Source: an uncultured Flavobacterium sp. (lineage in GTDB: Bacteria; Bacteroidota; Bacteroidia; Flavobacteriales; Flavobacteriaceae). From it: 16,941 nucleotides of DNA. The position numbers and the translations under genes were made by a program. Location of the stretch: positions 1-16,941 of the forward strand of contig NZ_CAMLIX010000103.1 in NCBI RefSeq assembly GCF_946479975.1, in the 5' to 3' direction. Positions 211 through 16,799 of this stretch are shown one piece after another. The notes beneath the pieces were generated by a model. That model was not told the DNA's origin and made no database searches. It saw nothing but the letters and a program-made list of their open reading frames with translations. How positions within the stretch are numbered: the stretch's first letter is position 1; the number at the start of each line of letters is the position of its first letter.

Positions 211-263
211 AAAAAAAATACTCCCAAAGAAAGAATCGAAATTCTCTTTTGGGAGTTTTTTTA
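211..263. terminator. Bidirectional intrinsic terminator
   Basis: ACTCCCAAA at 220-228 pairs with TTTGGGAGT at 248-256. The stem extends inward, with small bulges, to a CGAA loop at about 237-240. On the + strand it is followed by a run of T (256-262). On the - strand the A run at 211-219 becomes a T tract. It sits directly after the stop codons of two convergent genes, so it probably ends both transcripts. Confidence 0.85.
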
Positions 264-1220
264 TAAAAGTCTTTTTTTGTTGATTTCGATTAAATCTAAA
301 ACTTTGGTTTTCAATATTTCGGGTTCTAAAATAGTCGCGTAATCTCCAAACATTAAAAACCAGCGCGGAAAACCATTTTCCATATCACGGCACATAAATG
401 TCATTTCTATTTTATCGTCAATTTCTTTTTCAGAAACAAAACCATGATATTTTCTATCAAACGCTAGGTATCTTGCAATTTTCTTTTCTACTAAAAGTCG
501 AACTTTTGTAGTAGGAATGGTTTCGTGTTTATTTAAATAAGTTTCTAGAGAATCGTGTTCTATTGTAAAATCGAGATCGGTTTTTTTCAGGTTCTGAATT
601 CGATCTGTTCTAAACTGTCTGTAATCTTTTCGCAAATGGCAGAAACCTAAAAAATACCAGTTATTATTATCATGAAAAACGCCCACAGGTTCCAGGTTTC
701 GTTCTGTTAATTCGTCTTTTCCGAAAGTTTTGTATGAAAGTAAAATTTGTTTCTTTTCGGCAATACTTTCAAACAAAACATTCAAAGTATTTGGTGAATT
801 ATCATGAAACATCGGTTCAGCAGTCTGCATGATTACTCGCGATTCTATGTTCGAAAGCCAATCTTTATCGCTGTTTCTCAAAACCGATTTGAGTTTGTAC
901 ATCGCACTCGCATAATGATTTCCCAAAACAGGATCTGTAAATTTCTGAATTAGTTTTTCTGCGGCAATAAAACTGCTCACTTCTTCGCGCGTAAACATAA
1001 CCGGCGGTAATCGATACCCTTCCATTAAAGCATAACCAACTCCGGCTTCGCTATAAATGGGAACTCCAGAAGCTTCCAAAGTTCGAATGTCTCTGTAAAT
1101 GGTTCGTAAACTACAGTCAAAACGATCTGCTAATTCCTGCGCTTTTACAATCTTTTTAGACTGTAATTGAATCAGAATAGCAACAATTCGGTCAAATCGT
1201 TTTGGGGTTTCGTCGATCAT
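261..1220 (-). CDS. WYL-domain transcriptional regulator (YafY-like)
   Basis: This 319-residue protein has an N-terminal winged helix-turn-helix (about residues 6-65, core AQELADRFDCSLRTIYRDIR) of the DeoR/HTH_11 type. A WYL effector domain follows at about 140-220, with NWYFLGFC (187-194) in place of the canonical W-Y-L and RQFRTDRI (201-208), the conserved arginine-rich ligand-contact segment. A WCX-type C-terminal extension completes it. WYL regulators bind DNA and sense ligands, often nucleic acids or nucleotides. The ATG at 1218-1220 begins directly in front of the helix-turn-helix domain and the length is normal. It is monocistronic, converges on a DinB-family gene and is divergent from the Lgt-like operon. 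The inducer and targets are unknown; the DinB neighbour is a plausible target. Confidence 0.9.
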   Translation of the reverse strand: MIDETPKRFDRIVAILIQLQSKKIVKAQELADRFDCSLRTIYRDIRTLEASGVPIYSEAGVGYALMEGYRLPPVMFTREEVSSFIAAEKLIQKFTDPVLGNHYASAMYKLKSVLRNSDKDWLSNIESRVIMQTAEPMFHDNSPNTLNVLFESIAEKKQILLSYKTFGKDELTERNLEPVGVFHDNNNWYFLGFCHLRKDYRQFRTDRIQNLKKTDLDFTIEHDSLETYLNKHETIPTTKVRLLVEKKIARYLAFDRKYHGFVSEKEIDDKIEMTFMCRDMENGFPRWFLMFGDYATILEPEILKTKVLDLIEINKKRLL

Positions 1221-1321: not shown

Positions 1322-2065
1322 ATGAAGCTTCCTTTTGAGCCAGTTATTTTTGGTTATGAAATTAATGTCCATTTGGTTCTAGAATATCTGGCATTTTTTT
1401 TAGGATATCGGTATTATGTTTTTTTGAGAAAAAGAACAAACGACACTATTGTTTCTACCAATAGATTATCAATCATATTAGGAGCAGCAATTGGAGCTTT
1501 TTTGGGTTCTAGACTTATGGGTTTTCTAGAAAATCCTGTTTTTCATTCTGATGCAAAATCAATCTTAGAACTCTTCAATGCAAAAACCATTATGGGAGGA
1601 TTGTTTGGTGGACTTTTGGGCGTTGAAATTGCGAAGAAGATTATCGGTGAAAAAGAGTCATCGGGTGATTTATTCACTTTTCCCATTATTTTAGGAATTT
1701 TTATCGGAAGGATTGGTTGTTTTTTATCTGGTACAAATGAGTTTACATATGGAAAACAAACTAACTTTTTTTTGGGAATGAATCTTGGCGATAATATTAT
1801 GAGACATCCGATTGCTTTATATGAATTAATTTTTCTGATTATTTTGTTTTTTGTTTTGAAGAAATTAAAAACCAGAAATATTAAAAACGGGCTGCTGTTT
1901 CAGTATTTTATGATTGCCTACTTTACGTTTCGATTTTTTGTAGAATTTCTGAAACCCAATTATTTCCTGATTTTTGGAATAAGTTCCATTCAGATTTTAT
2001 GTCTCATTTGTCTGCTCTATTATAACAAAACAATTTTAAATTTATTTGTAAAAAATGCCAGTTAG
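1322..2065 (+). CDS. Divergent Lgt-family integral membrane protein
   Basis: This 247-residue polytopic membrane protein belongs to the prolipoprotein diacylglyceryl transferase (Lgt) fold family. Family marks are GRIGCFLSG (129-137), RHPIALYE (161-168), FRFFVEFLKPN (203-213) and a final SSIQILC helix start. True Lgt moves diacylglyceryl from phosphatidylglycerol to a lipobox cysteine. By eye alignment to E. coli Lgt, several important positions differ: His103 is replaced by Phe95 (GGLFGGLLG), Asn146 by Cys132, and Tyr26 probably by His17. The two arginine-containing motifs are kept. This suggests a paralogue that still binds a phospholipid-like substrate but does other chemistry; I would not call it the housekeeping lgt. 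The ATG at 1322 fits the family N-terminus. Its end overlaps the radical SAM gene by 11 bases, implying translational coupling. Confidence 0.8.
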   Translation: MKLPFEPVIFGYEINVHLVLEYLAFFLGYRYYVFLRKRTNDTIVSTNRLSIILGAAIGAFLGSRLMGFLENPVFHSDAKSILELFNAKTIMGGLFGGLLGVEIAKKIIGEKESSGDLFTFPIILGIFIGRIGCFLSGTNEFTYGKQTNFFLGMNLGDNIMRHPIALYELIFLIILFFVLKKLKTRNIKNGLLFQYFMIAYFTFRFFVEFLKPNYFLIFGISSIQILCLICLLYYNKTILNLFVKNAS

Positions 2066-3446
2066 AAAATACACTTATTATGATTTTACATTAAGCCTTT
2101 GTCCAGAATGCTTAAAGAGAATTGATGCTAAAATTGTTTTTGAAGACGAAAATGTCTACATGCTTAAAAGATGTCCAGAGCATGGAAGTTCGAAGGTTTT
2201 AATTGCCGACGATATTCAGTATTACAAGAATATCCGAAACTACAATAAACCATCTGAAATGCCCTATACTTTTAATACAAAAACGCATTACGGCTGTCCT
2301 TACGACTGTGGTTTGTGTCCAGATCACGAACAGCATTCGTGTCTTACAGTTGTTGAGGTTACAGATCGTTGCAATTTGACTTGTCCGACCTGTTATGCTG
2401 GTTCATCGCCTAGTTATGGCAGACACAGGACTCTTGATGAAATAAAAGCAATGCTCGATACGGTTGTTAAAAATGAAAAAGAACCTGATGTGGTGCAGAT
2501 TAGTGGAGGAGAACCCACTATACATCCGGAGTTCTTTGAAATTTTGGATTATGCAAAATCTACTCCGATTAAGCACTTAATGCTAAATACAAACGGAATC
2601 AAAATAGCAAAAGACAAAGAATTTGTTCAGAGACTAAAAAGTTATGCTCCAGATTTTGAAGTATATCTTCAGTTTGATTCTTTTGAAGATAGTGTCCTGC
2701 AGGAACTTCGAGGTGCCGATTTAAGCGAAATACGGAAACAAGCTTTAGAAAATCTAAACGAAGTGAATTTGTCAACCACATTGGTAGTTACACTTCAAAA
2801 AGGATTAAACGATCATGAGATAGGTAAAATTGTGGAGTTTGCACTAAAGCAAAAATGCGTTCGTGGTGTTACCTTTCAGCCGACTCAAATTGCAGGACGA
2901 TTGGAAAACTTCAATTTAGAAACCGATCGAATGACATTAACAGAAGTAAGAAGAAAAATTCTGGAGCAAACATCGGTTTTCAATTCAGATGATTTACTTC
3001 CAGTTCCTTGTAATCCAGATGCATTAGTAATGGGCTATGCATTGAAATTAGGAGATGAAGTTTTTCCGTTAACGCGATATATTAATCCAAATGATTTATT
3101 AGATAATAGTAAAAACACGATAATTTACGAGCAAGACGAAGTGCTTCGCGGCAAAATGATAGATTTGTTTAGTACAGGAAATTCTGTAGAAGTAGCGCAG
3201 GAGAATTTAAAATCGATATTATGCTGCCTTCCTAACATTGATGCGCCAGAATTAGGTTACGACAATCTGTTTAGAATTATTATCATGCAGTTTATTGATG
3301 CCTATAATTTTGATGTGAGGGCAATAAAAAAATCATGTGTCCATATTGTAAATAAGGATAATAAAATAATTCCGTTTGAAACGATGAATCTATTTTATAG
3401 AGATGATAAAATAAAAAGACTAGAAGAATTAAGAACTAATCTATAA
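2055..3446 (+). CDS. Radical SAM protein resembling tetraether lipid synthase (Tes)
   Basis: This is a 463-residue radical SAM enzyme. The cluster motif CNLTCPTC (C106, C110, C113) binds the SAM-cleaving [4Fe-4S] cluster, and SGGEPT (150-155) is the SAM-contact motif. Before it lie two more metal-type motifs: CPEC (16-19) with CPEH (40-43), a possible rubredoxin-like or zinc site, and CPYDCGLCPDH (81-91), a likely auxiliary Fe-S site. This order (CPxC/CPEHG, then GCPYDCGLCP, then the radical SAM triad) is what I associate with Tes-like proteins such as archaeal MJ0619, which join lipid alkyl chains. More cysteines at 319, 390, 391 and 428 could ligate further clusters. The substrate is unknown. 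The ATG at 2055 lies inside the Lgt-like gene. There are no membrane segments, so a cytosolic or membrane-associated enzyme is expected. Similarity is by recognition; another radical SAM function remains possible. Confidence 0.8.
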   Translation: MPVRKYTYYDFTLSLCPECLKRIDAKIVFEDENVYMLKRCPEHGSSKVLIADDIQYYKNIRNYNKPSEMPYTFNTKTHYGCPYDCGLCPDHEQHSCLTVVEVTDRCNLTCPTCYAGSSPSYGRHRTLDEIKAMLDTVVKNEKEPDVVQISGGEPTIHPEFFEILDYAKSTPIKHLMLNTNGIKIAKDKEFVQRLKSYAPDFEVYLQFDSFEDSVLQELRGADLSEIRKQALENLNEVNLSTTLVVTLQKGLNDHEIGKIVEFALKQKCVRGVTFQPTQIAGRLENFNLETDRMTLTEVRRKILEQTSVFNSDDLLPVPCNPDALVMGYALKLGDEVFPLTRYINPNDLLDNSKNTIIYEQDEVLRGKMIDLFSTGNSVEVAQENLKSILCCLPNIDAPELGYDNLFRIIIMQFIDAYNFDVRAIKKSCVHIVNKDNKIIPFETMNLFYRDDKIKRLEELRTNL

Positions 3447-3451
3447 AGCAT

Positions 3452-3646
3452 ATGACAGCACTAGAAGTCAATTTAGGTAGTTTGGTCGCTTTTTTTATAG
3501 CGATTATGGTTGGACCGCCAATTTTAATGACAATCATTGGTTTAGCAATTAAGAAAAACAGTCCAAATGGAGCAAAGGTGTGTTTTATTATTGGAGCCTT
3601 ATATCTTATTATCGGACTAGGAATATGCGGAACACTTATGTCATAA
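3452..3646 (+). CDS. Small two-helix membrane protein
   Basis: This 64-residue protein starts at an ATG 5 bases after the radical SAM stop. It has two hydrophobic segments, about residues 10-32 (LVAFFIAIMVGPPILMTIIG) and 43-62 (VCFIIGALYLIIGLGICGTL), joined by a basic loop KKNSPNGAK that should lie in the cytoplasm. I do not recognise a family. Tight spacing makes it the third gene of the Lgt-like/radical SAM operon, so it may anchor or assist those proteins at the membrane. A leader or RiPP precursor role is unlikely: there is no cleavable leader or repetitive core, and the length is taken up by the two helices. Confidence 0.7.
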   Translation: MTALEVNLGSLVAFFIAIMVGPPILMTIIGLAIKKNSPNGAKVCFIIGALYLIIGLGICGTLMS

Positions 3647-3681
3647 TAAAAAACCCCAAATAAATTTATTTATTTGGGGTT
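3646..3681. terminator. Intrinsic terminator between convergent genes
   Basis: A perfect 13-bp stem, AACCCCAAATAAA at 3652-3664 with its complement at 3669-3681, encloses a TTTA loop. On the - strand it is followed by T-rich sequence, so it clearly serves the outer-membrane protein gene that ends at 3706. It can also stop the + strand operon that ends at 3646, although the + side lacks a long T run. Confidence 0.8.
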
Positions 3682-3705: not shown

Positions 3706-4320
3706 TTAGAATCTATACAACAATCCAAATTGTGGTTGATCGAAGATGTTTTCAAACAAATTGATGTTCACTTGAAAAGTATCTGATGATGGACCATTTT
3801 CTGGAGCAACACTGTTGTAAGAAAGCATATTTGCCAATACAAATGTTACCGCAATGTTTTTAGTAATAAAGTAGTTTAAACCAATATTTACATCTGCAGT
3901 TACACTGTTTGTAGTGTCGCTAATAAGATCGCTTTCATATTTGTTTCTTCCGAAACCTAAACCTACCTCAGCATAAGTTTTAAAACGTTTTTTATCTAAT
4001 TCTAAGAAATAGTAACGTGCAAATGCTCCAGCTCCAAATACATTTGTTTTCTCGTATGGAGTTTCTTGTTTGATACTCGCATAGTTTACTTTTGCTCCTA
4101 CAGCAAATTTATCGTTTAGGAAATAGCCAAATTTTGGACTAAAACCATAGTAATCTTCTTCACCACCTGTACTGATTTTTATAGAACCTTCAAGAAACAT
4201 ATCGCCTTGTGAAAAAGTTACTCCTTTTGCAGAATTCATTTCAGCTTCAGCTTGATCTTCTTGTGCGTTTGCGAAACAAAAAGTGAAAAGTGCTAAAATA
4301 ACTGATAATTTGGTTTTCAT
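3706..4320 (-). CDS. Outer-membrane beta-barrel protein
   Basis: This 204-residue secreted protein has a Sec signal peptide (MKTKLSVILALFTFCFANAQ, cleavage near residue 19/20), then alternating amphipathic strands rich in G, Y and F, such as YGFSPKFGYFL, VGAKVNYASI, AGAFARYYFL and YAEVGLGFGRN. It ends in LLYRF with a C-terminal phenylalanine, the usual signal for barrel insertion. The length suits an eight-stranded OmpX/OmpW-like barrel. It has no peptidoglycan-binding OmpA domain. The function (porin, adhesin or structural) cannot be told. It stands alone, convergent with the Lgt-like operon. Confidence 0.85.
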   Translation of the reverse strand: MKTKLSVILALFTFCFANAQEDQAEAEMNSAKGVTFSQGDMFLEGSIKISTGGEEDYYGFSPKFGYFLNDKFAVGAKVNYASIKQETPYEKTNVFGAGAFARYYFLELDKKRFKTYAEVGLGFGRNKYESDLISDTTNSVTADVNIGLNYFITKNIAVTFVLANMLSYNSVAPENGPSSDTFQVNINLFENIFDQPQFGLLYRF

Positions 4321-6505: not shown

Positions 6506-7204
6506 TTAAAATTCAAAATTGAATCCTTTTTCTGTTAATTTCCTGTACATTTCAGGGTCAAATTTGTAAAGTTTTGCCGCTCTGTGCGAAACGTCTTTTT
6601 GCTTTTCATCCAATGCTGTCAGCAGTTTCATGTGAAGAACTTTTCTTCTGAAATTAGATTTGTCCAGCTCGATTCCTAAAATTTCTTCGTACAAATGCAT
6701 CAGCTGCAATAAAGTGAATTTTTCGGGTAATAAATTAAAACCAATTGGCGCTTGACGAACTCTATTTCGCAGTTGTAATAAACTGAAATCGAGAATTTCA
6801 TTATGGTCAAAAATCAAATCTGGAATTTCTTTGATTTTGTACCATTTGGCTTCAATAACTTTTAAACTGGCCTTGATATTGTAATCTTCCCGATTTACTA
6901 AAGTATAATAACCAATGGTTACAACTCTTCGCTCCAAAACACGTTTCGGATTTGTAAAAGCTTTTAACTGCTCCAAATAAATATCTTCAAGTCCGGTAAG
7001 TTCCTGCAAAATACGCTGTGCGGCATCATCGGCGCTTTCGTCCAGTTGAAGCCAGCCACCGAGAAGTCCCCATTTGCCTTTACTTTCGCCTTGAGCGTGT
7101 TGTACCAAAAGAACTTCGAGACTTTCTTTATTAAATCCGAAGAAAACACAGTCAATTGTGATTCCGTCAACAGCTGGTTTGTTATGAGTAGTTATGTCTG
7201 TCAA
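6506..7204 (-). CDS. NUDIX-domain winged-helix regulator, copy 1 (NrtR/AraR-like)
   Basis: This protein of about 232 residues has an N-terminal NUDIX fold (about 15-140) and a C-terminal winged-helix DNA-binding domain (about 160-215, FTLLQLMHLYEEILGIELDK). This is the architecture of NrtR and of the Bacteroidota arabinose regulator AraR. The NUDIX box is degenerate: in RILQELTGL the catalytic glutamates expected in REuxEExGu are reduced to one, so it should bind a ligand (sugar or ADP-ribose-like) rather than hydrolyse it. No ATG is available near the N-terminus; an in-frame stop lies shortly upstream, so the TTG at 7202-7204 is the best start, giving MTDITTHN. It lies 56 bases downstream of the start of its paralogue's 3' neighbour region, about 77% identical to it by eye, and probably shares its transcript. 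No clear terminator separates it from lepA. Confidence 0.85.
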   Translation of the reverse strand: MTDITTHNKPAVDGITIDCVFFGFNKESLEVLLVQHAQGESKGKWGLLGGWLQLDESADDAAQRILQELTGLEDIYLEQLKAFTNPKRVLERRVVTIGYYTLVNREDYNIKASLKVIEAKWYKIKEIPDLIFDHNEILDFSLLQLRNRVRQAPIGFNLLPEKFTLLQLMHLYEEILGIELDKSNFRRKVLHMKLLTALDEKQKDVSHRAAKLYKFDPEMYRKLTEKGFNFEF

Positions 7205-7260: not shown

Positions 7261-7977
7261 TCAGAATTCAAAATTGAAACCTTTCTCTGTTAATTTCTCG
7301 TAGATTTCAGGGTCAAATTTATACAATTGAGCTGCTCTGTGCGATACATCTTGTTGTTTTTCGTCTAAAGCGGCCAAAAGTTTCATATGAAGAATTTTTC
7401 TTCTAAAGTTCGGTTTGTCCATTTCAATTCCCAAAATTTCTTCGTACAACTGCATCAATTGTAATAAAGTGAATTTCTCTGGAAGCAGATTAAAACCTAT
7501 TGGCGTCTGGCGGACTTTATTTCGAAGGTGTTGTAAACTGTAATCTAAAATTTCGTTATGATCGTAAATCAAATCTGGAATTGTGTTGATTTTATACCAT
7601 TTAGCATCAGAGGCTGTAAAACCTGCTTTAATATTGTAATCTTCTCTTTTTACCAAAGCATAATAGCCAATTGTAATAACGCGTCGCAGCGGAAAACGGT
7701 CTGGATCTCCAAACGCTTTCAATTGTTCTAGATAAATATTATCAAGTCCCGTTAATTCATTCAATAAACGATGCGCCGCATTATCGGTACTTTCTTTTTT
7801 GTTAATCCATCCTCCAGGAAGACCCCATTTTCCTTTGCTGATCCCTTCGCCGTGCTGTACCAAAAGTACTTCAAGACTGCCTTTGTCAAAACCAAAAATG
7901 ACACAGTCAATTGTGATGGCATTCATCGCACTGTTTTCACTTTTTGGAGCAGTTTTGTCATCTACATTTTCGACCAT
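7261..7977 (-). CDS. NUDIX-domain winged-helix regulator, copy 2 (NrtR/AraR-like)
   Basis: This 238-residue protein is the tandem paralogue of the next gene downstream, with a NUDIX domain then a winged helix (FTLLQLMQLYEEILGIEMDK, LHMKLLAALDEKQ). The NUDIX box (GGWINKKES to RLLNELTGL, about residues 55-78) has lost two of the three usual glutamates, suggesting a ligand sensor. The frame stays open to a TTG at 7996-7998. I chose the ATG at 7975-7977 because it is the first standard start and the extra seven residues have no match in the paralogue. It is divergent from the susC-like gene and next to the likely control region, so it is the natural candidate regulator of the polysaccharide locus. 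In Bacteroides the related AraR controls arabinose genes; the ligand here is unknown. Confidence 0.88.
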   Translation of the reverse strand: MVENVDDKTAPKSENSAMNAITIDCVIFGFDKGSLEVLLVQHGEGISKGKWGLPGGWINKKESTDNAAHRLLNELTGLDNIYLEQLKAFGDPDRFPLRRVITIGYYALVKREDYNIKAGFTASDAKWYKINTIPDLIYDHNEILDYSLQHLRNKVRQTPIGFNLLPEKFTLLQLMQLYEEILGIEMDKPNFRRKILHMKLLAALDEKQQDVSHRAAQLYKFDPEIYEKLTEKGFNFEF

Positions 7978-8174
7978 ATTCAAGATAAATTTTGACAAAT
8001 TAAATAAATAAAATGATTAGGAGGCTTCTTAAAAGCTTTATATTTTTTTTAACGAAACAAAAAATTGATTATCAGTAGATTAAAAAATCATTAAAAAACC
8101 TTCTTAATTAGATTGATTCTTAAATAGCTGATTGTCAATTTCATAAAACGCTGATTTTTCTACATTTTTTATTT

Positions 8175-8606: not shown

Positions 8607-11600
8607 ATGAAAAGCAAAAATTGTATTAAAACAACAAAGCTTCCATATTTTATGGCGGTGCTGCTTAGCGTATTTATGATGCAGTTTGGATTTGCACAAG
8701 AATCCAAAACTGTAAGTGGAACAATCACTTCTGCCGAAGACGGATTTGGAGTTCCCGGAGCAACTGTACAAGTACAGGGAACAAAATCGAGTACTGTTAC
8801 CGATTTTGATGGAAAATATAAAGTGGAAGCCAAAACAGGCGATGTTTTAGTGATCACTTTCGTGGGATTTAAAACACAGAATATTACAGTTGGCACTCAA
8901 AAAGTAGTCAACGCAGTGATGCAGCCAGAAACTGCAGAACTTAAAGAAATCGTAGTAATTGGTTACGGTACACAAAAGAAGAAGGTAAATACTGCTGCAA
9001 CTTCGTTGGTATCTGGAAAAGATATTCAGCAAGTAGCATCTCTTGATGTTGTAAATGCTTTGCAGGGTCAGGCTTCTGGAGTTTCTGTAACTTCTTCTTC
9101 TGGTCAGCCGGGTGCGAATATGGTGGTAAATATTCGTGGAGCAGGTACAGCAGGAAACAGTGATCCGCTTTATGTGGTGGACGGTGTGGTGGTAGACAAC
9201 GGAATTGGATATTTGGATCCGTCTGTTATTGAAAGGGTTGACGTTTTGAAAGATGCTTCTGCAGCTTCTATCTACGGAGCAAGAGCGGCAAATGGAGTGA
9301 TCTTGGTAACTACTAAAAAAGGAAAAGACGGTAAAATGAATGTGGCATTCAGTTCTTATACAGGTTTTCAGCAGATTGCTAAAAAACTAGATTTGATGAA
9401 TACACAGGAATATACAACGATTATTAACGAAGCTCGTGTAAATTCTGGTTATGCGCCGTTATATACAAAAGATCAAATCGCTGGTTTTCCTAATAATGAC
9501 TGGCAGAAAGATTTGTTCTACGAAGGAGCAATGAAACAAAACCACTCACTTTTGATTACTGGTGGTGACGAAAAATCTACAATTGCAACGGGTTTATCTT
9601 ACTACGGACAAGATGGTATGATTGGAGGATCTACAAATCAATCGCAGTTTGACCGTGTAACTTTCTCTGTAAATTCTACTTCAGAAGTGATTAAAGGATT
9701 TTTGAAAATTGGTGAAAACTTTACTTTATCAAACATCAAATCTAAAGGTGTTGCAGATGATGGTATTTATGGCAATGCAATTAGAAGTTTCTTAAATGCA
9801 GCTCCAATTGATCAGGCGTATGACGCAAACGGAGGTTTTGCTCGTTCAGTTATTTCAAATGACGTAACAAATCCTGTTGGATCTTTGTATTACAACAACT
9901 TCAACCAGACAAAAACAAACCGTTATGTGGGGAATATTTTTGCTGAATTAAAAGTTATAAAAGACCTGACTTTCAGAACTAGTTTTGGTGTAGATATGAC
10001 AGATAGTAACTACCGCGCTTTTAGACCAGTTTATTCTCTTTCTTCAAATGATAACAATACTGTTTCTAGCGTAACTCAAAGTGGTACAAAATCTATGGGA
10101 TGGATTTTTGAAAATACACTTCAATACAAATTCAATCTTGCTTCTTCCCATAATTTTGATGTATTGGTTGGTACTTCTGCAAAAAAGAATACTTCTGATT
10201 ACATGGAAGGACAAGGAAGAAACTTAATTTTTGACGATTTTGCTCACGCTTATTTGGATAATGCAAAAGATCCTACATCAAATGTGGTAAAAGGAAATCG
10301 TAAAGATTATGCGATTCAGTCGTACTTCGGACGTTTATTATACGATTACAACAATAAATACTTATTCTCTGCAACAGTTCGTCGTGACGGTTCGTCAGAA
10401 TTTGGTCCAGATAACAAATATGCTATTTTCCCTTCGTTCTCAGCCGGATGGAATTTAGATAAAGAAGCTTTCTTTAAAGAAAATAAAGTTTTAAATAGTT
10501 TCAAATTAAGAGCAAGCTGGGGACAAAATGGTAACGACCAATTTGGTAGAAGATTTGCTTATTTGTCAACTGTAAATTCAACAGATAAAACTTATCATTT
10601 TGGAACTGGTGACGAAACGTTATTAGTAGGTTCAAGTCCAGATCAATTAGCAAATCGCAACTTAAAATGGGAAACTTCAGAGCAGTTAGATTTAGGTTTT
10701 GATGCTACTTTGTTCGACAAATTTAATTTGACTTTTGATTATTATGATAAGAAAACAAAAGATTGGCTGGTATTGGCCTCTATCCCAACTTATGCTGGAG
10801 CAACTGCACCTTACATTAACGGTGGAGATGTAAGCAACAAAGGTTTTGAAATTGGATTATCATACCGCACACGTATTGGACAAGATTGGAATTTTGCTGT
10901 AAATGCAAACCTTTCTCGCAACCAGAATGAAGTGTTGAGAATTGCAAACAATGAAGGAATCATTCACGGAGAATCAAACGTATTGTTTCAAGGTTTAGAC
11001 GAGATGAACCGTGTTGAAGTAGGAAAACCAATGGGTTATTTCTACGGATTAAAAACAGCTGGAATTTTCCAAAATGCGGCTGAAGTTGCAGCGGGAGTAC
11101 AGCCAAATGCACAGCCTGGAGATGTTCGTTTCGTAGATTTAAATGGTGACGGACAAATCGATGCAAATGATAAAACGCAAATTGGTGATCCAAATCCAGA
11201 TATTAATTACGGCATCAATTTAGAAATTTCATACAAAGCTTTTGATTTTTCTATCAATACTTATGGTATCGCTGGAGGACAAAACGTTTTCGGAATTCAC
11301 GATTACACTCGTGCTTATACAAATAACACAACAGATGTGTTGAACAGATGGACAAGCGAAGGAACTTCAAATAGAATTCCGAGAGTAACTTACGGAACAG
11401 ATGACAACGGTAATTACACTAAATTCTCAGATTTGTATATTCAGGATTCAGATTTCTTCAGAATTAAAAATGCTACCATCGGATGTGATTTAACGAAAGT
11501 AACAGACAAGTTGAAATTCTTCTCAAAATTCAGAGTGTACGTGGCTGGAAATAATATTTACACTTTCACGAAATACAAAGGAATGGATCCAGAGATTGGT

Positions 11601-11696
11601 TTCGGAAACGTAAATCAGTCTTGGGCAAAAGGAATCGATGTGGGATATTATCCACAGCCAAGAACCTACATGATGGGTCTAAATGTTAACTTTTAA
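8607..11696 (+). CDS. SusC-like TonB-dependent outer-membrane glycan transporter
   Basis: This 1029-residue protein has the usual length for the family. It has a signal peptide to about residue 30 (QFGFAQ), a carboxypeptidase-like regulatory domain (about 34-107, GVPGATVQVQGT, TDFDGKY), a TonB-box-like EIVVIGYG (114-121), a plug domain with the SusC marks PLYVVDGV (188-195) and DASAASIYGARAANG (216-230), and a large beta-barrel ending in MMGLNVNF. It imports oligosaccharides across the outer membrane using TonB energy, with the SusD-like protein as its lid. It lacks an N-terminal STN domain, so control by an anti-sigma/FecI-type sigma pair is not expected. It starts the operon, with 12 bases before the susD-like ATG. 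The substrate is not predictable from the sequence. Confidence 0.97.
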   Translation: MKSKNCIKTTKLPYFMAVLLSVFMMQFGFAQESKTVSGTITSAEDGFGVPGATVQVQGTKSSTVTDFDGKYKVEAKTGDVLVITFVGFKTQNITVGTQKVVNAVMQPETAELKEIVVIGYGTQKKKVNTAATSLVSGKDIQQVASLDVVNALQGQASGVSVTSSSGQPGANMVVNIRGAGTAGNSDPLYVVDGVVVDNGIGYLDPSVIERVDVLKDASAASIYGARAANGVILVTTKKGKDGKMNVAFSSYTGFQQIAKKLDLMNTQEYTTIINEARVNSGYAPLYTKDQIAGFPNNDWQKDLFYEGAMKQNHSLLITGGDEKSTIATGLSYYGQDGMIGGSTNQSQFDRVTFSVNSTSEVIKGFLKIGENFTLSNIKSKGVADDGIYGNAIRSFLNAAPIDQAYDANGGFARSVISNDVTNPVGSLYYNNFNQTKTNRYVGNIFAELKVIKDLTFRTSFGVDMTDSNYRAFRPVYSLSSNDNNTVSSVTQSGTKSMGWIFENTLQYKFNLASSHNFDVLVGTSAKKNTSDYMEGQGRNLIFDDFAHAYLDNAKDPTSNVVKGNRKDYAIQSYFGRLLYDYNNKYLFSATVRRDGSSEFGPDNKYAIFPSFSAGWNLDKEAFFKENKVLNSFKLRASWGQNGNDQFGRRFAYLSTVNSTDKTYHFGTGDETLLVGSSPDQLANRNLKWETSEQLDLGFDATLFDKFNLTFDYYDKKTKDWLVLASIPTYAGATAPYINGGDVSNKGFEIGLSYRTRIGQDWNFAVNANLSRNQNEVLRIANNEGIIHGESNVLFQGLDEMNRVEVGKPMGYFYGLKTAGIFQNAAEVAAGVQPNAQPGDVRFVDLNGDGQIDANDKTQIGDPNPDINYGINLEISYKAFDFSINTYGIAGGQNVFGIHDYTRAYTNNTTDVLNRWTSEGTSNRIPRVTYGTDDNGNYTKFSDLYIQDSDFFRIKNATIGCDLTKVTDKLKFFSKFRVYVAGNNIYTFTKYKGMDPEIGFGNVNQSWAKGIDVGYYPQPRTYMMGLNVNF

Positions 11697-11708
11697 TTTT
11701 TGAAAACG

Positions 11709-13289
11709 ATGAAAACATATATAAAATTATTTGCCCTTTCAAGCCTACTTGTTTTAGGTTCTTGTTCGGAGGATTTTTTAGAAAACGAACCATACACAGA
11801 TAAAGTAACAGAGAATTTTTATAAAACTCCAGCTGACGCTTTTGAAGGTTTGGTTGCCGTTTATGATGTATTGCAAAGAGAAGCTTACGGTACACAATTG
11901 ATCGTGAGTGAGCAGGCATCTGACAACTGTTTCGGCGGATTTGGTCTTGCAGATCCAACTATAGATTTACAATGGGACCGTTTCCAGTATACTACAGACA
12001 AAGATATGAACGCGCCAACTTGGACAAACTCTTATCTTGGAATTTACAGAGCTAATGTTTTGTTAGAAAACTTAGACAAAGTAAACTGGGGAGCAGATAC
12101 AGCTTTGAAAACACGTTACGAAGCAGAAGCTCGTTTTTTAAGAGCGCACTTCCACTTTCAGGCAGCAAAAATGTTTGGAGATATTGTTCCGTTAGATCAT
12201 ACGGTTACAACAAGCGAATTTCAATTACCAAGACAAGCAGCAGAAGTTACGTATGCTTTAATTGCTAACGATTTAAAATTTGCTGCAGATAACTTAAATA
12301 ATGATAATTATTCTAAAGCAGGAAATGCAAACTTTGGGCGTATTACAAAATGGGCTGCAGAAGCTTATTTGGCTAGAACATTCTTGTTTTACACTGGCGC
12401 TTACAACAAAACAGATTTAGCTGGAGTAATCACAAAAGCACAAGCAACAACTTATATTAATGATGTTGTAAGTAATAGTGGTCATGATTTAGTTCCTGAT
12501 TTTGCTAATCTTTGGCTGGCAGCTTCTTTAGAAAATTTTGTTGGAGAAGATAATACAGAAATGGTTTGGGCTGTTCGTTTTAATGGTTCAGGAAAAGGAA
12601 ATTGGGATCTTCACGAAGGAAACCGTTTCCAAGTAAACATTGCACCACGTGGAGGAGCAATTGGAAGATATGCAACAGGATGGGGTGGAGCAACAGTAAA
12701 CCCAAAATTGGTTGCAGCTTATGATCTTGCAGATACTAGAAAAAAAGCTTCATTTATTGATTATGTTGGAGAAGGATTAAATTTTGATGCACAAACAAGA
12801 GAGCAGCGTCAATACACTGGATATTCTTGGAAAAAATACTGCCCAATTACAAATGCTGCAGGAACAGCTGTCGTAGAAGCAAACGGAGGAAATTTCCAAA
12901 TTGATAACTACCAAGATTACGCTATTATTCGTTTTGCAGATGTTTTATTAATGGCTGCCGAATTAAACTTAGACGGAAATGCAGGTTTAGCTCAAGCAGA
13001 TCTAGACAGAGTTCGTGATCGTGCTTTTAAAAACACCACTCACAGAATTACTGCCTCTAAAGCAAACATTATGGAAGAGCGTCGTTTAGAATTGGCCTTA
13101 GAAGGATCACGTTATTTTGACTTAATCAGACAAGGAATGGTTGTAATGAAATCTGCTATTGATAACAATACCGGAGACTCACAATTTAATGTGACTTTTA
13201 GACCAGAAACTCAAGGATGGTTTGCTTTACCGCAATCGCAGATAATACTTTCAAACGGTACTATTAAGCAAAATGCAGGTTGGAATTAA
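11709..13289 (+). CDS. SusD/RagB-like surface glycan-binding lipoprotein
   Basis: This 526-residue protein is the lid partner of the SusC-like transporter and captures glycan at the cell surface. The lipoprotein signal MKTYIKLFALSSLLVLGSC places the lipidated cysteine at residue 19. The following SEDFLE is acidic, as in Bacteroidota surface-export signals. SusD marks are ARFLRAHFHF (about 141-150) in the TPR region and the C-terminal EERRLELALEGSRYFDLIRQG segment. The frame opens at a TTG at 11700, but the ATG at 11709 is preferred because it gives a standard lipoprotein signal. Spacing to the next gene is 18 bases, so these form one operon. Confidence 0.96.
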   Translation: MKTYIKLFALSSLLVLGSCSEDFLENEPYTDKVTENFYKTPADAFEGLVAVYDVLQREAYGTQLIVSEQASDNCFGGFGLADPTIDLQWDRFQYTTDKDMNAPTWTNSYLGIYRANVLLENLDKVNWGADTALKTRYEAEARFLRAHFHFQAAKMFGDIVPLDHTVTTSEFQLPRQAAEVTYALIANDLKFAADNLNNDNYSKAGNANFGRITKWAAEAYLARTFLFYTGAYNKTDLAGVITKAQATTYINDVVSNSGHDLVPDFANLWLAASLENFVGEDNTEMVWAVRFNGSGKGNWDLHEGNRFQVNIAPRGGAIGRYATGWGGATVNPKLVAAYDLADTRKKASFIDYVGEGLNFDAQTREQRQYTGYSWKKYCPITNAAGTAVVEANGGNFQIDNYQDYAIIRFADVLLMAAELNLDGNAGLAQADLDRVRDRAFKNTTHRITASKANIMEERRLELALEGSRYFDLIRQGMVVMKSAIDNNTGDSQFNVTFRPETQGWFALPQSQIILSNGTIKQNAGWN

Positions 13290-13307
13290 CTCTAAAACAA
13301 ATTGATT

Positions 13308-14177
13308 ATGAAACGTATATTATATATAGTATTAGCGGCTGTAACAATCAGTTCGTTTTTATTCTCTTGCGAGCCTGTTGAAGATCGTGAAAGTTTGCCA
13401 GCAGTGACGCTGACACCAGAAACACTTGAGTTTTCTATAACTCAAAATACAGCAAAAAAGAATGAAGTAGTTTTAAAGAATGATGATCCAACGGTGATTC
13501 CGTTTTGGAGATACGTTGACGGAAACGGAAACGAGCTAGGACATTCTAATAAAAGTGACGATAAAATAACTTTTCCTTTTGCCGGAAAATACACTGTTTA
13601 TTACACTGCTTTCGTACGCGGCGGTTCTGTCGAAGCGGCGCCCGTAACGATAGAGGTTCCAGAAAATGATAATGCATTCTTCAGTGATCCAAGATGGAAC
13701 AAATTGACAAACGGACAAGCTGGAAAAACTTGGGTAATGTACATGACAGCTCCATTAGAATTTATTGGAAACAGTCCGAGTTATGTTAACAGAGCGGTAA
13801 GCCCTGCGGGTTGGTGGCCAAATTTATCCGATATTTCATGGGCCGGTCTGGAAAATAAAGATTGGGGAGAAATTACTTTTGATCTTGACGGAGGTTACAA
13901 TGTCTCGGTAACGCAGACAAATCCAACTTTAGGAAGCACAGCAAAAACAACAAAAAAGGGAACATTCAATTATAGTTTGACAAATGGTGAAACCAATGAT
14001 AGAATTTCATTTAATGGAGGAACAGAAATGCTGCATCCAAATGAAGCAAGCTATTTTAGCCCTTCATTTAGTTTTACTAATGTAAAAATTGTAGAATTAA
14101 CGGATACAAGTTTGTGTTTTATCGCCATTAGAGCAGATGGTGATTATTTGATTTACCATATGGTTCCAAAATCTTAG
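13308..14177 (+). CDS. Putative surface glycan-binding lipoprotein (SusE/F position)
   Basis: This 289-residue lipoprotein has a signal ending LFSC with Cys21, followed by acidic EPVEDRES, consistent with surface display. An Ig/PKD-like domain occupies about residues 28-115 (FPFAGKYTVYYTAFVRGG, then VTIEV). A C-terminal beta-rich domain with many aromatics follows (GKTWVMY, AGWWPNLSDISWAG, DWGEITFDL). That layout and the position after SusD fit a surface glycan-binding protein of the SusE/SusF functional class, although no catalytic motif or specific family is recognisable. The tryptophans W173 and W174 and nearby residues could form a sugar platform. The ATG at 13308 is chosen over an upstream TTG because it starts a clean signal peptide. 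Confidence 0.75.
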   Translation: MKRILYIVLAAVTISSFLFSCEPVEDRESLPAVTLTPETLEFSITQNTAKKNEVVLKNDDPTVIPFWRYVDGNGNELGHSNKSDDKITFPFAGKYTVYYTAFVRGGSVEAAPVTIEVPENDNAFFSDPRWNKLTNGQAGKTWVMYMTAPLEFIGNSPSYVNRAVSPAGWWPNLSDISWAGLENKDWGEITFDLDGGYNVSVTQTNPTLGSTAKTTKKGTFNYSLTNGETNDRISFNGGTEMLHPNEASYFSPSFSFTNVKIVELTDTSLCFIAIRADGDYLIYHMVPKS

Positions 14178-14191
14178 GTTAGTTAGTTTTG

Positions 14192-14239
14192 AAGTCTCAG
14201 TTTTAAACATGTTTCTAACGTGCTTTAAGACTGAGACTT
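14192..14239. terminator. Long hairpin between the glycan-binding gene and the GH2 gene
   Basis: A 16-base arm at 14192-14207 (AAGTCTCAGTTTTAAA) pairs with 14224-14239 with only one non-Watson-Crick position (G:U on the + strand RNA), leaving a 16-base loop. It starts 14 bases after the stop codon. The following AATTATTTTAG is only weakly T-rich, so it may be a partial terminator or an RNA-stabilising hairpin that lowers expression of the downstream glycosidase. Confidence 0.6.
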
Positions 14240-14312
14240 AATTATTTTAGTAAGAAATAAACGAAATCGATTTTTATTTCTATCTTCAATTTCCAAAAAA
14301 AATAAAATACCA

Positions 14313-16799
14313 ATGCAGATTAAAAAAAATATACTAAAAATCAGTTTATGGGCATTTGCGGCCGGAGTTCTTTTTTTGAATTCTTGTGCAAAAAAAGAAG
14401 AAGCTTTTATAAACCGAAAAGTTTCTTTTAATGCCAATTGGAGCTTTCATCTCAATGATAGTATTGCTGATAAAGATACTATCGGAACTGCCACAAAATG
14501 GAGAACTCTAGACGTTCCGCACGATTGGGGAATCGAAGGTAAATTTAATGAAAAAAGTCCCGGAGGTTATGGCGGCGGATCGCTTAATGGAGGTTTAGGC
14601 TGGTATAAAAAAACATTCAAAGTTACTGCAGCAGACAGCACAAAAATTACTTCAATTACTTTCGACGGCGTTTATAGAAACAGCGAAGTCTGGATAAACG
14701 GACATTATTTAGGAAAACGTCCAAACGGATATATTGGTTTTCAATATGAAATGACTCCATATTTAAATTACGGAGACAAAAACAACGAAATCATTGTTAA
14801 GGTTGACAATTCAAAACAACCTAATTCACGTTGGTATTCGGGTTCAGGAATTTTTAGAAATGTTTGGATCGAAACCACAGATAAATTACATGTTGAAAAT
14901 TGGGGAACTTATGTTACAACTCCAAAAGTTACGGCTGAAAAAGCTTCAGTAAATATTGAAACCAGAATCCAGAATGATCATTTAGATTCGAAGAAAGCAA
15001 AAATTGTAACTACTATTTATAAAGAAGATGCAAAAGTAACGTCATCTTCAAGTGAAATAACTCTAACTAAGAAAAGTGGCACATTATTAAATGTAGATTT
15101 AGAAGTTGAAAATCCAGTTTTATGGTCAGATGAAAAACCTGAATTGTACACAGCAGTGACGGAAATTTCAGTTGATGATAAAATTGTAGATCAATACAAA
15201 ACTACTTTTGGAATCAGAGATTTTAAATTCGATTTGAACAAAGGTTTTATTTTGAATGGAAAACAAGTCAAAATAAAAGGAGTTTGTATGCACCACGATT
15301 TAGGTCCGTTAGGTGCTGCAATCAATACACGCGCGATCGAACGCCAGTTGGAAATTTTAAAAGAAATGGGTGTAAACGGAATCAGGACTTCTCACAATCC
15401 ACCTGCTCCAGAACTTTTAGAGCTTTGCGATAAAATGGGTTTCATTGTCATGGATGAAGCTTTCGACATGTGGAAACAAAACAAAACCAAATACGATTAT
15501 GCAAACGATTGGGACAAATGGCACAGAAAAGATTTAGCAGATCAACTTCGCCGTGACCGTAATCATCCAAGTATTTTTATGTGGAGTATCGGAAATGAAA
15601 TTCCAGAACAATGGAGCGAAGAAGGTATTAAAATTGCAAAAGAATTAGCAGAAATTGTCCGTTTAAATGACAAAACGCGTCCAATTACGGCAGGAATGAA
15701 TCCGCCGGTAAATATGAATATTGATGCCGTGACTTTGCAGTTTGAGAAAAAAAATGTTTCGATTAATCCGCTTGCGGGATCGGGAGTTTTAGATTTAATC
15801 GGATACAATTACGCGCATCAAACGTTTGAACACCATCAAAAAAATTTCCCAAACAAACCTTTCATCGCAACCGAAACTACTTCAGGTTTGCAGACAAGAG
15901 GTTATTACGATGCCGTTTCAGACACGATCAAAAAATGGCCGGTTAGATGGGATCTTAAGTTTACAGAAGGAAATCCTGGAAATACCGTTTCAGCCTACGA
16001 TCAAGTGCAGGCGCCTTGGGGTTCTACGCACGAAGCAACTTGGAAAATCATTAAAAAACACGATTTCTTAGCTGGAATGTACGTTTGGACAGGTTTCGAT
16101 TATATCGGAGAACCAACTCCGTACGAATGGCCATCAGTAAGTTCCTATTTTGGAATTGTCGATTTAGCCGGTTTCCCGAAAGACGTGTATTATATGTACC
16201 AAAGTGAGTGGACGAAGAAAGATGTTCTTCACATTTTCCCACATTGGAACTGGAAAGCAGGACAAACCGTTGACGTTTGGGCCTATTATAATAATGCAGA
16301 TGAGGTGGAACTTTTCGTAAACGGAAAATCAGTTGGAAAAAGAACTAAAAAAGGAGACGATTTACACGTAATGTGGAGAATTCCTTTCGAAGCTGGAACG
16401 CTTAAAGCAATTTCTCGTAAAGGCGGAAAAGTAGTTTTAGAAAAAGAAATCAAAACGGCTGGAAATCCTTCACAATTAAAATTAACGGCTGATAGAAATA
16501 CAATCAAAGCAGACAAAAATGATTTGTCATTTGTAACCGTAGATATTTTAGATGCTAACGGAACTTTAGCGCCAAACGCCAATAACGAAATCAATTTTTC
16601 ATTAAAAGGAAACGGAAAAATTGTAGGCGTTTGCAGCGGAGATCCCGTAAGTCACGAACCGTATAAAGGAACAAAACATACGGCTTTGGCAGGAAAATGT
16701 TTAGTGATTGTTCAATCTGGAGATAACTCTGGAAGATTAGAATTAACCGCTAAAGCAAATGGTCTAAAACAAGCAACAATCGTAATTACAACAGAATAA
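14313..16799 (+). CDS. GH2-family glycoside hydrolase lipoprotein (beta-galactosidase-like)
   Basis: This 828-residue enzyme hydrolyses beta-linked sugars with retention. A lipoprotein signal ends LNSC with Cys25. Domains in order are the GH2 sugar-binding jelly roll (about 35-188, VPHDWGIEGKF, DGVYRNSEVWINGHYLG), an Ig-like domain (190-300), and a TIM barrel (about 305-630) with HNPPAPELLELCDKMGF, the acid/base E429 in GNE and the probable nucleophile E521 in ATETTS. A DUF4982-like domain (about 640-705, VDVWAYYNNADEVELFVNGKS) and a C-terminal bacterial Ig-like domain (720-828) follow. This layout is common in beta-galactosidases of Bacteroidota loci, but beta-glucuronidase or other GH2 activities cannot be excluded. 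It is periplasmic or cell-surface, and probably the first of more enzymes to the right. Confidence 0.95.
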   Translation: MQIKKNILKISLWAFAAGVLFLNSCAKKEEAFINRKVSFNANWSFHLNDSIADKDTIGTATKWRTLDVPHDWGIEGKFNEKSPGGYGGGSLNGGLGWYKKTFKVTAADSTKITSITFDGVYRNSEVWINGHYLGKRPNGYIGFQYEMTPYLNYGDKNNEIIVKVDNSKQPNSRWYSGSGIFRNVWIETTDKLHVENWGTYVTTPKVTAEKASVNIETRIQNDHLDSKKAKIVTTIYKEDAKVTSSSSEITLTKKSGTLLNVDLEVENPVLWSDEKPELYTAVTEISVDDKIVDQYKTTFGIRDFKFDLNKGFILNGKQVKIKGVCMHHDLGPLGAAINTRAIERQLEILKEMGVNGIRTSHNPPAPELLELCDKMGFIVMDEAFDMWKQNKTKYDYANDWDKWHRKDLADQLRRDRNHPSIFMWSIGNEIPEQWSEEGIKIAKELAEIVRLNDKTRPITAGMNPPVNMNIDAVTLQFEKKNVSINPLAGSGVLDLIGYNYAHQTFEHHQKNFPNKPFIATETTSGLQTRGYYDAVSDTIKKWPVRWDLKFTEGNPGNTVSAYDQVQAPWGSTHEATWKIIKKHDFLAGMYVWTGFDYIGEPTPYEWPSVSSYFGIVDLAGFPKDVYYMYQSEWTKKDVLHIFPHWNWKAGQTVDVWAYYNNADEVELFVNGKSVGKRTKKGDDLHVMWRIPFEAGTLKAISRKGGKVVLEKEIKTAGNPSQLKLTADRNTIKADKNDLSFVTVDILDANGTLAPNANNEINFSLKGNGKIVGVCSGDPVSHEPYKGTKHTALAGKCLVIVQSGDNSGRLELTAKANGLKQATIVITTE

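Follow-up and report, generated by a model that had tools for sequence, protein, structure and literature searches.

The 16,941-nucleotide window analyzed here, the whole stretch of DNA under study, comes from contig NZ_CAMLIX010000103.1 of an uncultured Flavobacterium sp. (assembly GCF_946479975.1) and contains a three-gene operon that pairs a membrane protein of the Lgt fold with a radical S-adenosylmethionine (SAM) enzyme related to tetraether lipid synthase (Tes) and TrsS, followed by a small membrane protein. Open reading frame (ORF) calling recovered the three genes that a preliminary description of this DNA had proposed, together with the overlap and the gap between them:

1322-2065, plus strand: Lgt-like integral membrane protein, 247 amino acids (ORF 1; Pfam LGT)
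2055-2065, plus strand: 11-base overlap of the Lgt-like stop and the radical SAM start
2055-3446, plus strand: radical SAM protein of the Tes/TrsS superfamily, 463 amino acids (ORF 2; Pfam Radical_SAM and Zn_ribbon_HMPTM)
3447-3451: 5-base gap between the radical SAM gene and the small-protein gene
3452-3646, plus strand: small membrane protein, 64 amino acids, two predicted helices (ORF 3)

This arrangement is conserved among related bacteria. A genome scan with ORF 2 returned at least 567 relatives, and each of the best 80 loci, nearly all from Flavobacteriaceae by title, has a same-strand Lgt-like ORF ahead of the radical SAM gene and encodes a small ORF 3-like protein behind it. The Lgt-like stop overlaps the radical SAM start in 57 of these loci, lies 0-500 bases from it in 22 and is 5.5 kb away in one (L074); 79 of the 80 Lgt-like genes overlap the radical SAM gene or lie within 410 bases of it; a few of these ORFs are short or broken (for example, in L023, L054 and L074). 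The exact 11-base overlap is retained in 52 of the 80 relatives, which is beyond chance. Because the 80 best loci are close relatives, a wider sample of 395 Bacteroidota genomes was used, in which a radical SAM ortholog (at least 60% identity) was present in 28. A Lgt-like profile detected 29 of the 395 genomes at E = 2e-76 or better, namely every one of the 28 genomes above plus genome G021; in the flanks retrieved, 26 of the 28 have the pair side by side, and G038 and G276 have it on separate contigs. The co-occurrence that the preliminary description had proposed to look for is supported by these counts. Four genomes rank next in radical SAM similarity (G125, G374 and G160 at 39-43%; G100 at 36%), and in each of them the radical SAM gene has a Lgt-like gene 0.2-1.1 kb away, with a score in G100 at the level of background Lgt proteins (E = 3e-22). 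Loci of the 39-43% lineages (L121, L127 and L128) carry extra operon genes between the two, of the ICMT/PEMT-type methyltransferase and DUF4395 types (L121 4784-5858, L127 7829-8951, L128 7518-8516), and Pfam confirmed the former in L121 and L127 and DUF4395 in L121. The most Tes-like matches of the 395-genome sample, in G070 and G306, have no Lgt-like gene within 13.5-14 kb.

What is new here is that the third gene is part of this system and carries a conserved cysteine. ORF 3 had no family match in Pfam or NCBIfam, and its Cys59 (codon 3626-3628) lies in a GICG near the C-terminus. The 80 loci contain 118 ORF 3-like copies, one to four per locus; a G-x-C occurs in the last 20 residues of 112 of these, with at least one such copy in every locus, compared to 6 of 396 other hydrophobic ORFs from the same loci. 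The gene is found in tandem in 33 of the 80 loci (29 double, 3 triple, 1 quadruple; for example, L014, L041, L060 and L027), and some tandem copies may not be real genes.

Shared descent among the 118 copies, and the use of a profile built from these same copies to find them, lessen the weight of that count, so distant loci and gene positions were used as an independent test. The small proteins cannot be aligned across lineages and have two to four helices; nothing is common to them across lineages but a cysteine close to the C-terminus. In a form chosen after the distant tails had been inspected, G-x(1,3)-C within the final 20 residues, a small protein of this kind is found at 24 of 28 distant Lgt-linked loci versus none of 8 Tes- or TrsS-type loci. 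By the same criteria, small cysteine-containing ORFs are also concentrated around the radical SAM gene: at 14 distant loci there are 18 within 2.3 kb of it (84 kb of sequence) versus 2 elsewhere (114 kb), and at the 80 loci there are 113 within 2.3 kb (477 kb) versus 4 elsewhere (572 kb). The Nonomuraea locus L244 encodes, upstream of the Lgt-like gene, a 368-amino-acid ORF (2114-3220, plus strand) with three hydrophobic helices and then SAGICTGINPSLYG at its end, as if, judging from its sequence, a small cysteine protein had been fused to a long N-terminal part. Mean net charge over the 112 copies is +4.3 in the loop before the last helix and 0.0 in the C-terminal tail; under the positive-inside rule, this difference would place the cysteine where the last helix ends on the periplasmic side. 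This is the side to which the active site of Lgt is thought to face, according to the available part of one study (PMC4728403).

A small gene with a conserved cysteine that adjoins a radical SAM gene could also be explained by protein maturation, whereby the radical SAM enzyme would introduce a thioether or some different peptide modification into the small protein, with the Lgt-like protein as a partner in the membrane. G276, where a contig without the Lgt-like gene carries the small gene next to the radical SAM gene, speaks for this explanation, but we consider it quite improbable. In line with the preliminary description, the radical SAM protein falls outside the peptide- and cofactor-modifying families, its best full-length models being TrsS and Tes.

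The Lgt fold proposed for the first gene product is borne out by a Pfam LGT score of 87.2 bits (cut-off 24.9), and the score of this protein against the Lgt equivalog TIGR00544 is 56.6, under the cut-off of 118.9. Like Lgt (prolipoprotein diacylglyceryl transferase; Protein Data Bank (PDB) 5AZB), it keeps the donor-lipid residues: R130, E168, Y200, R204 and E208 align to E. coli Lgt R143, E202, Y235, R239 and E243, and R130 and R204, the counterparts of donor-site R143 and R239, are invariant in 25 of 25 aligned sequences. It differs from Lgt in that M91 takes the place of His103, with loss of the HGGL motif (HGG is found in none of the 80 related Lgt-like ORFs, searched over residues 76-125), and C133 that of N146. 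In E. coli Lgt, His103 is essential and was proposed to help bind the acceptor peptide (PMC4728403, in its available part). Canonical Lgt identity was rejected since His103 is lost and separate, canonical Lgt genes are present alongside the Lgt-like gene in 4 of 4 genomes tested. C133 was also considered as a hallmark of the system and dropped, as a Lgt paralogue in G172 has GRIGC too.

Loss of the histidine would suit an alternative in which divergence has left the Lgt-like protein a lipid-binding scaffold and the radical SAM enzyme acts on menaquinone, carotenoid or polyprenol tails, and the natural substrates of Tes are indeed isoprenoid chains according to the part of the structural work available (PMC9433317). 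However, a mere scaffold would not need the five retained residues, and inspection by eye of the ORF clusters at the 80 loci, made without a family search, revealed no recurrent isoprenoid gene, so that modification of isoprenoids is a distinctly unlikely account.

The radical SAM protein matches the solved structure of Tes (7tol) at E = 6.6e-74. It scores 305.5 bits against the NCBIfam model for Tes (NF045702; cut-off 450), with the best stretch at residues 12-320, and 342 bits over residues 12-450 against that for TrsS (NF045646; cut-off 490), the best full-length family match. As both scores lie under their cut-offs, it was rejected as Tes proper and as TrsS. ORF 2 shares with Tes the fold and three of four metal sites: a rubredoxin-type CxxC...CxxH site (C16, C19, C40 and H43), a motif taken from the available description of Tes (PMC9433317); an N-terminal auxiliary cluster of C81, C85 and C88 plus H91 in GCPYDCGLCPDH, identical to the Tes row; and the CX3CX2C SAM cluster (C106, C110 and C113). 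Its C-terminal cysteines are C319, C390, C391 and C428, and M411 occupies the place of Tes Met439, the residue that the portion of the source available names (PMC9433317); the CC and PFC cysteines of Tes may be further cluster ligands, judging from their conservation. What stands of the Tes-like enzyme of the preliminary description is the fold and the first ~320 residues, and the C-terminal part, which lacks two Tes-type cysteines, is closer to TrsS. A phylogeny separated Tes plus TrsS-type proteins from the remaining sequences with support of only 90/77, and relatives of the L121 type were found in Clostridia, in the candidate phyla radiation (CPR) and in DPANN (as names, without contigs).

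Several other proposals for this protein were tried and rejected. A role in phage defence was set aside because the PADLOC match was to viperin alone, at 47 bits over the shared radical SAM core. An initial viral scan found no relatives of the radical SAM protein, and a mobile or viral origin was rejected; a viral scan with alignment A2 gave 80 viral loci, the closest of which shows 30% identity across residues 12-238 at most. The claim that Tes has a more hydrophobic second lipid pocket than ORF 2 was dropped when hydropathy gave no separation.

The likeness to Tes raises the possibility of bacterial tail coupling, in which the radical SAM enzyme joins the ends of two acyl chains to give membrane-spanning or macrocyclic lipids, the Lgt-like and small proteins serve as membrane anchor and lipid feeder, and iso-branched chains take the part of the isoprenoid ends that they chemically resemble. 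Tail cross-linking is one option only, because ORF 2 is not Tes by cut-off, its Tes alignment being best over residues 12-320, and its cysteine pattern is different in the C-terminal cluster region, which serves C-C coupling in Tes: S427 and E442 replace cysteines of CC and PFC, and C428 is kept. In addition, I431 replaces Tes Tyr459 (variants of which stay active, in the part of the Tes literature available), a bacterial protein that is Tes by cut-off has no Lgt-like neighbour, and a literature search that covered few subscription journals found no membrane-spanning lipid of Flavobacterium. Tail-to-tail C-C coupling in general, and this version of it, are thus unlikely.

Comparison with distant loci suggests that proximity to a Lgt-like gene sets the ORF 2 clade apart from its known relatives. 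When plasmid records were searched by tblastn with a distant member, 10 matched and nine were examined, with Halalkalicoccus left out. On three actinomycete replicons, those of Mycobacterium avium pS2b, M. branderi pJCM12687 and Nonomuraea gerenzanensis, the radical SAM gene is immediately preceded by a Lgt-like gene, and the record from Persicobacter (Bacteroidota) again has an 11-base overlap. In four haloarchaeal records and that of Mycolicibacterium vanbaalenii, a methyltransferase gene adjoins the radical SAM gene and there is no Lgt-like gene. These plasmid loci (haloarchaeal and Mycolicibacterium; L240, L245, L246, L247; L239), in which a class-I methyltransferase gene comes directly after the radical SAM gene, form a two-gene pattern unlike the Lgt-linked one. 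The label 'TrsS-type' for the five is our own, given from the neighbouring class-I methyltransferase gene, our working criterion for TrsS, and from place in the tree, without an NCBIfam scan; all five inspected have that gene and none has a Lgt-like gene. Among the eight Tes- and TrsS-type loci (these five plus L123, L124 and L157), none has a Lgt-like neighbour within flanks of about 1.5 kb (L157) to 8 kb. L123 (6364-7821, plus strand), from the same phylum as the window, scores 493.8 bits against the Tes cut-off and is itself a candidate bacterial Tes. The Lgt-like/radical SAM pairing is old, and the trio is found again in distant bacteria.

The methyltransferase neighbours bear on another proposal, methyl or one-carbon transfer to a pterin or lipid, after the old annotation of MJ0619 as 7,8-dihydro-6-hydroxymethylpterin dimethyltransferase. 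Several metagenome relatives bear the dimethyltransferase name and TrsS-type relatives adjoin a methyltransferase gene, but the pterin annotation is held to be incorrect for MJ0619 in the part of the source available (PMC9433317) and the ORF list places no methyltransferase gene within the window operon, which leaves this proposal very improbable.

Among described systems, Tes (GDGT-MAS, the MJ0619 tetraether lipid synthase; PDB 7TOL/7TOM) differs from ORF 2 in its model score, C-terminal cysteines and Tyr459, and the three Tes-type loci seen here lack the Lgt-like gene that the ORF 2 clade is always near. TrsS, a radical SAM (seleno)protein, is the closest full-length match and differs in gene neighbourhood. 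The bacterial membrane-spanning lipid synthase Mss resembles ORF 2 as a radical enzyme for coupling of lipid tails in bacteria and is said to share the Tes catalytic architecture; it was set beside ORF 2 by description and not by sequence, and the available part of that report does not mention a Lgt-like link (PMC13274423). The preliminary description knew of no described role for such a pair in Flavobacterium, and a literature search of the same coverage as above found no account of the pair.

The combination of a Tes-fold enzyme, a Lgt fold with donor residues and a cysteine protein at the same membrane face makes lipid modification the best reading of the operon. We think that the module probably acts on membrane lipids, and we tentatively favour, at somewhat short of even confidence, the view that the three genes form one membrane-associated lipid-modification module. 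The Lgt-like protein would bind phospholipid at the periplasmic face of the inner membrane, would act at the C3 side of the glycerol and would use some acceptor different from the usual lipobox peptide. The likeliest acceptor or docking partner would be the small protein, whose cysteine is predicted to lie at that face, and the product would be an uncleaved, lipid-tethered membrane protein. It is doubtful that the cysteine receives or handles lipid. The radical SAM enzyme would carry out C-H chemistry on a lipid tail, by coupling two tails or by another tail modification. In the boldest version, to which we give a small probability, the operon would be a self-contained lipid-tethering machine, in which, once the Lgt-like protein has attached a glycerolipid to the small-protein cysteine, the tails of this bound lipid or of a neighbouring one are coupled or remodelled by the Tes-like enzyme, and ordinary aerobic mesophiles would thereby make a lipid or lipoprotein that spans the membrane or is macrocyclic.

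The lipid modification put forward in the preliminary description is partly supported, by co-conservation and by lipid-handling folds, and qualified by an enzyme below the Tes cut-off, and a number of other observations weigh against a lipid-modification module. The co-occurrence of the two genes under independence (log10 P = -41) is a statistic that ignores shared descent. G021 keeps a Lgt-like gene with motifs intact (L141 6153-6998, minus strand), with no radical SAM ortholog found in that genome and no small cysteine protein near the gene, and in G038, where the genes are on different contigs, the small protein was found near neither. For the Lgt-like protein, Lgt Y26 is likewise not conserved, and lipid transfer to a cysteine is not assured because the lost His103 has an essential role in E. 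coli. For ORF 2, the two missing cysteines count here as well, region 353-400 was modelled at low confidence, the hydropathy of the 341-413 stretch does not clearly differ from that in Tes-type proteins (-0.12 versus -0.16 to +0.32), and branches in the tree are long, with an actinomycete clade on one of length 3.6. The cysteine context of the small protein (G-x-C with a bulky -1 residue) is no lipobox; 6 of the 118 copies lack G-x-C and 4 of these lack any cysteine in the last 20 residues, at least some of the six being unlikely as genes; and the automated scan missed a small protein at 4 of the 28 Lgt-linked loci (L104 at a contig edge, L241 and L244 with another start or a fusion by eye, and L107 with none found).

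The remaining features of the window lie on either side of the operon, the last four having been read from translations alone as a look-alike of a polysaccharide utilisation locus (8607-16799, plus strand):

261-1220, minus strand: WYL/helix-turn-helix (HTH) regulator gene, divergent, upstream of the operon
3652-3681: perfect 13-bp inverted repeat that separates the operon from the convergent gene and resembles a minus-strand terminator in the scan
3706-4320, minus strand: outer-membrane beta-barrel gene, convergent, downstream of the operon
8607-11696, plus strand: SusC-like protein
11700-13289, plus strand: SusD-like protein
13302-14177, plus strand: further lipoprotein-like ORF
14313-16799, plus strand: glycoside hydrolase family 2-like protein

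The scan for terminator-type inverted repeats gave 2 sites versus 1.5 expected by chance, and a regulatory RNA reading was dropped as an Rfam search of the window had no family match. Beside the SusC gene are two similar, neighbouring Nudix-type proteins with a C-terminal extension (6506-7204 and 7261-7998, minus strand), apparently a tandem duplication, which we take to resemble NrtR/AraR-type regulators.

The Lgt-linked clade is a subfamily separate from Tes, with other partners and another C-terminal cysteine pattern. Surveys count bacterial Tes homologues at E below 1e-50 and read them as possible makers of branched glycerol dialkyl glycerol tetraethers (brGDGTs), according to the part of one such survey available (PMC8941075), and proteins of the Lgt-linked clade match Tes well enough that such surveys could count them too. 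In addition, the Lgt-like protein illustrates the Lgt fold in use without the acceptor histidine, and the small cysteine protein offers a one-residue handle on mechanism. If the module is active on lipids, it would identify a widespread group of aerobic bacteria with a radical-based lipid modification that the lipidomic studies found have not addressed.
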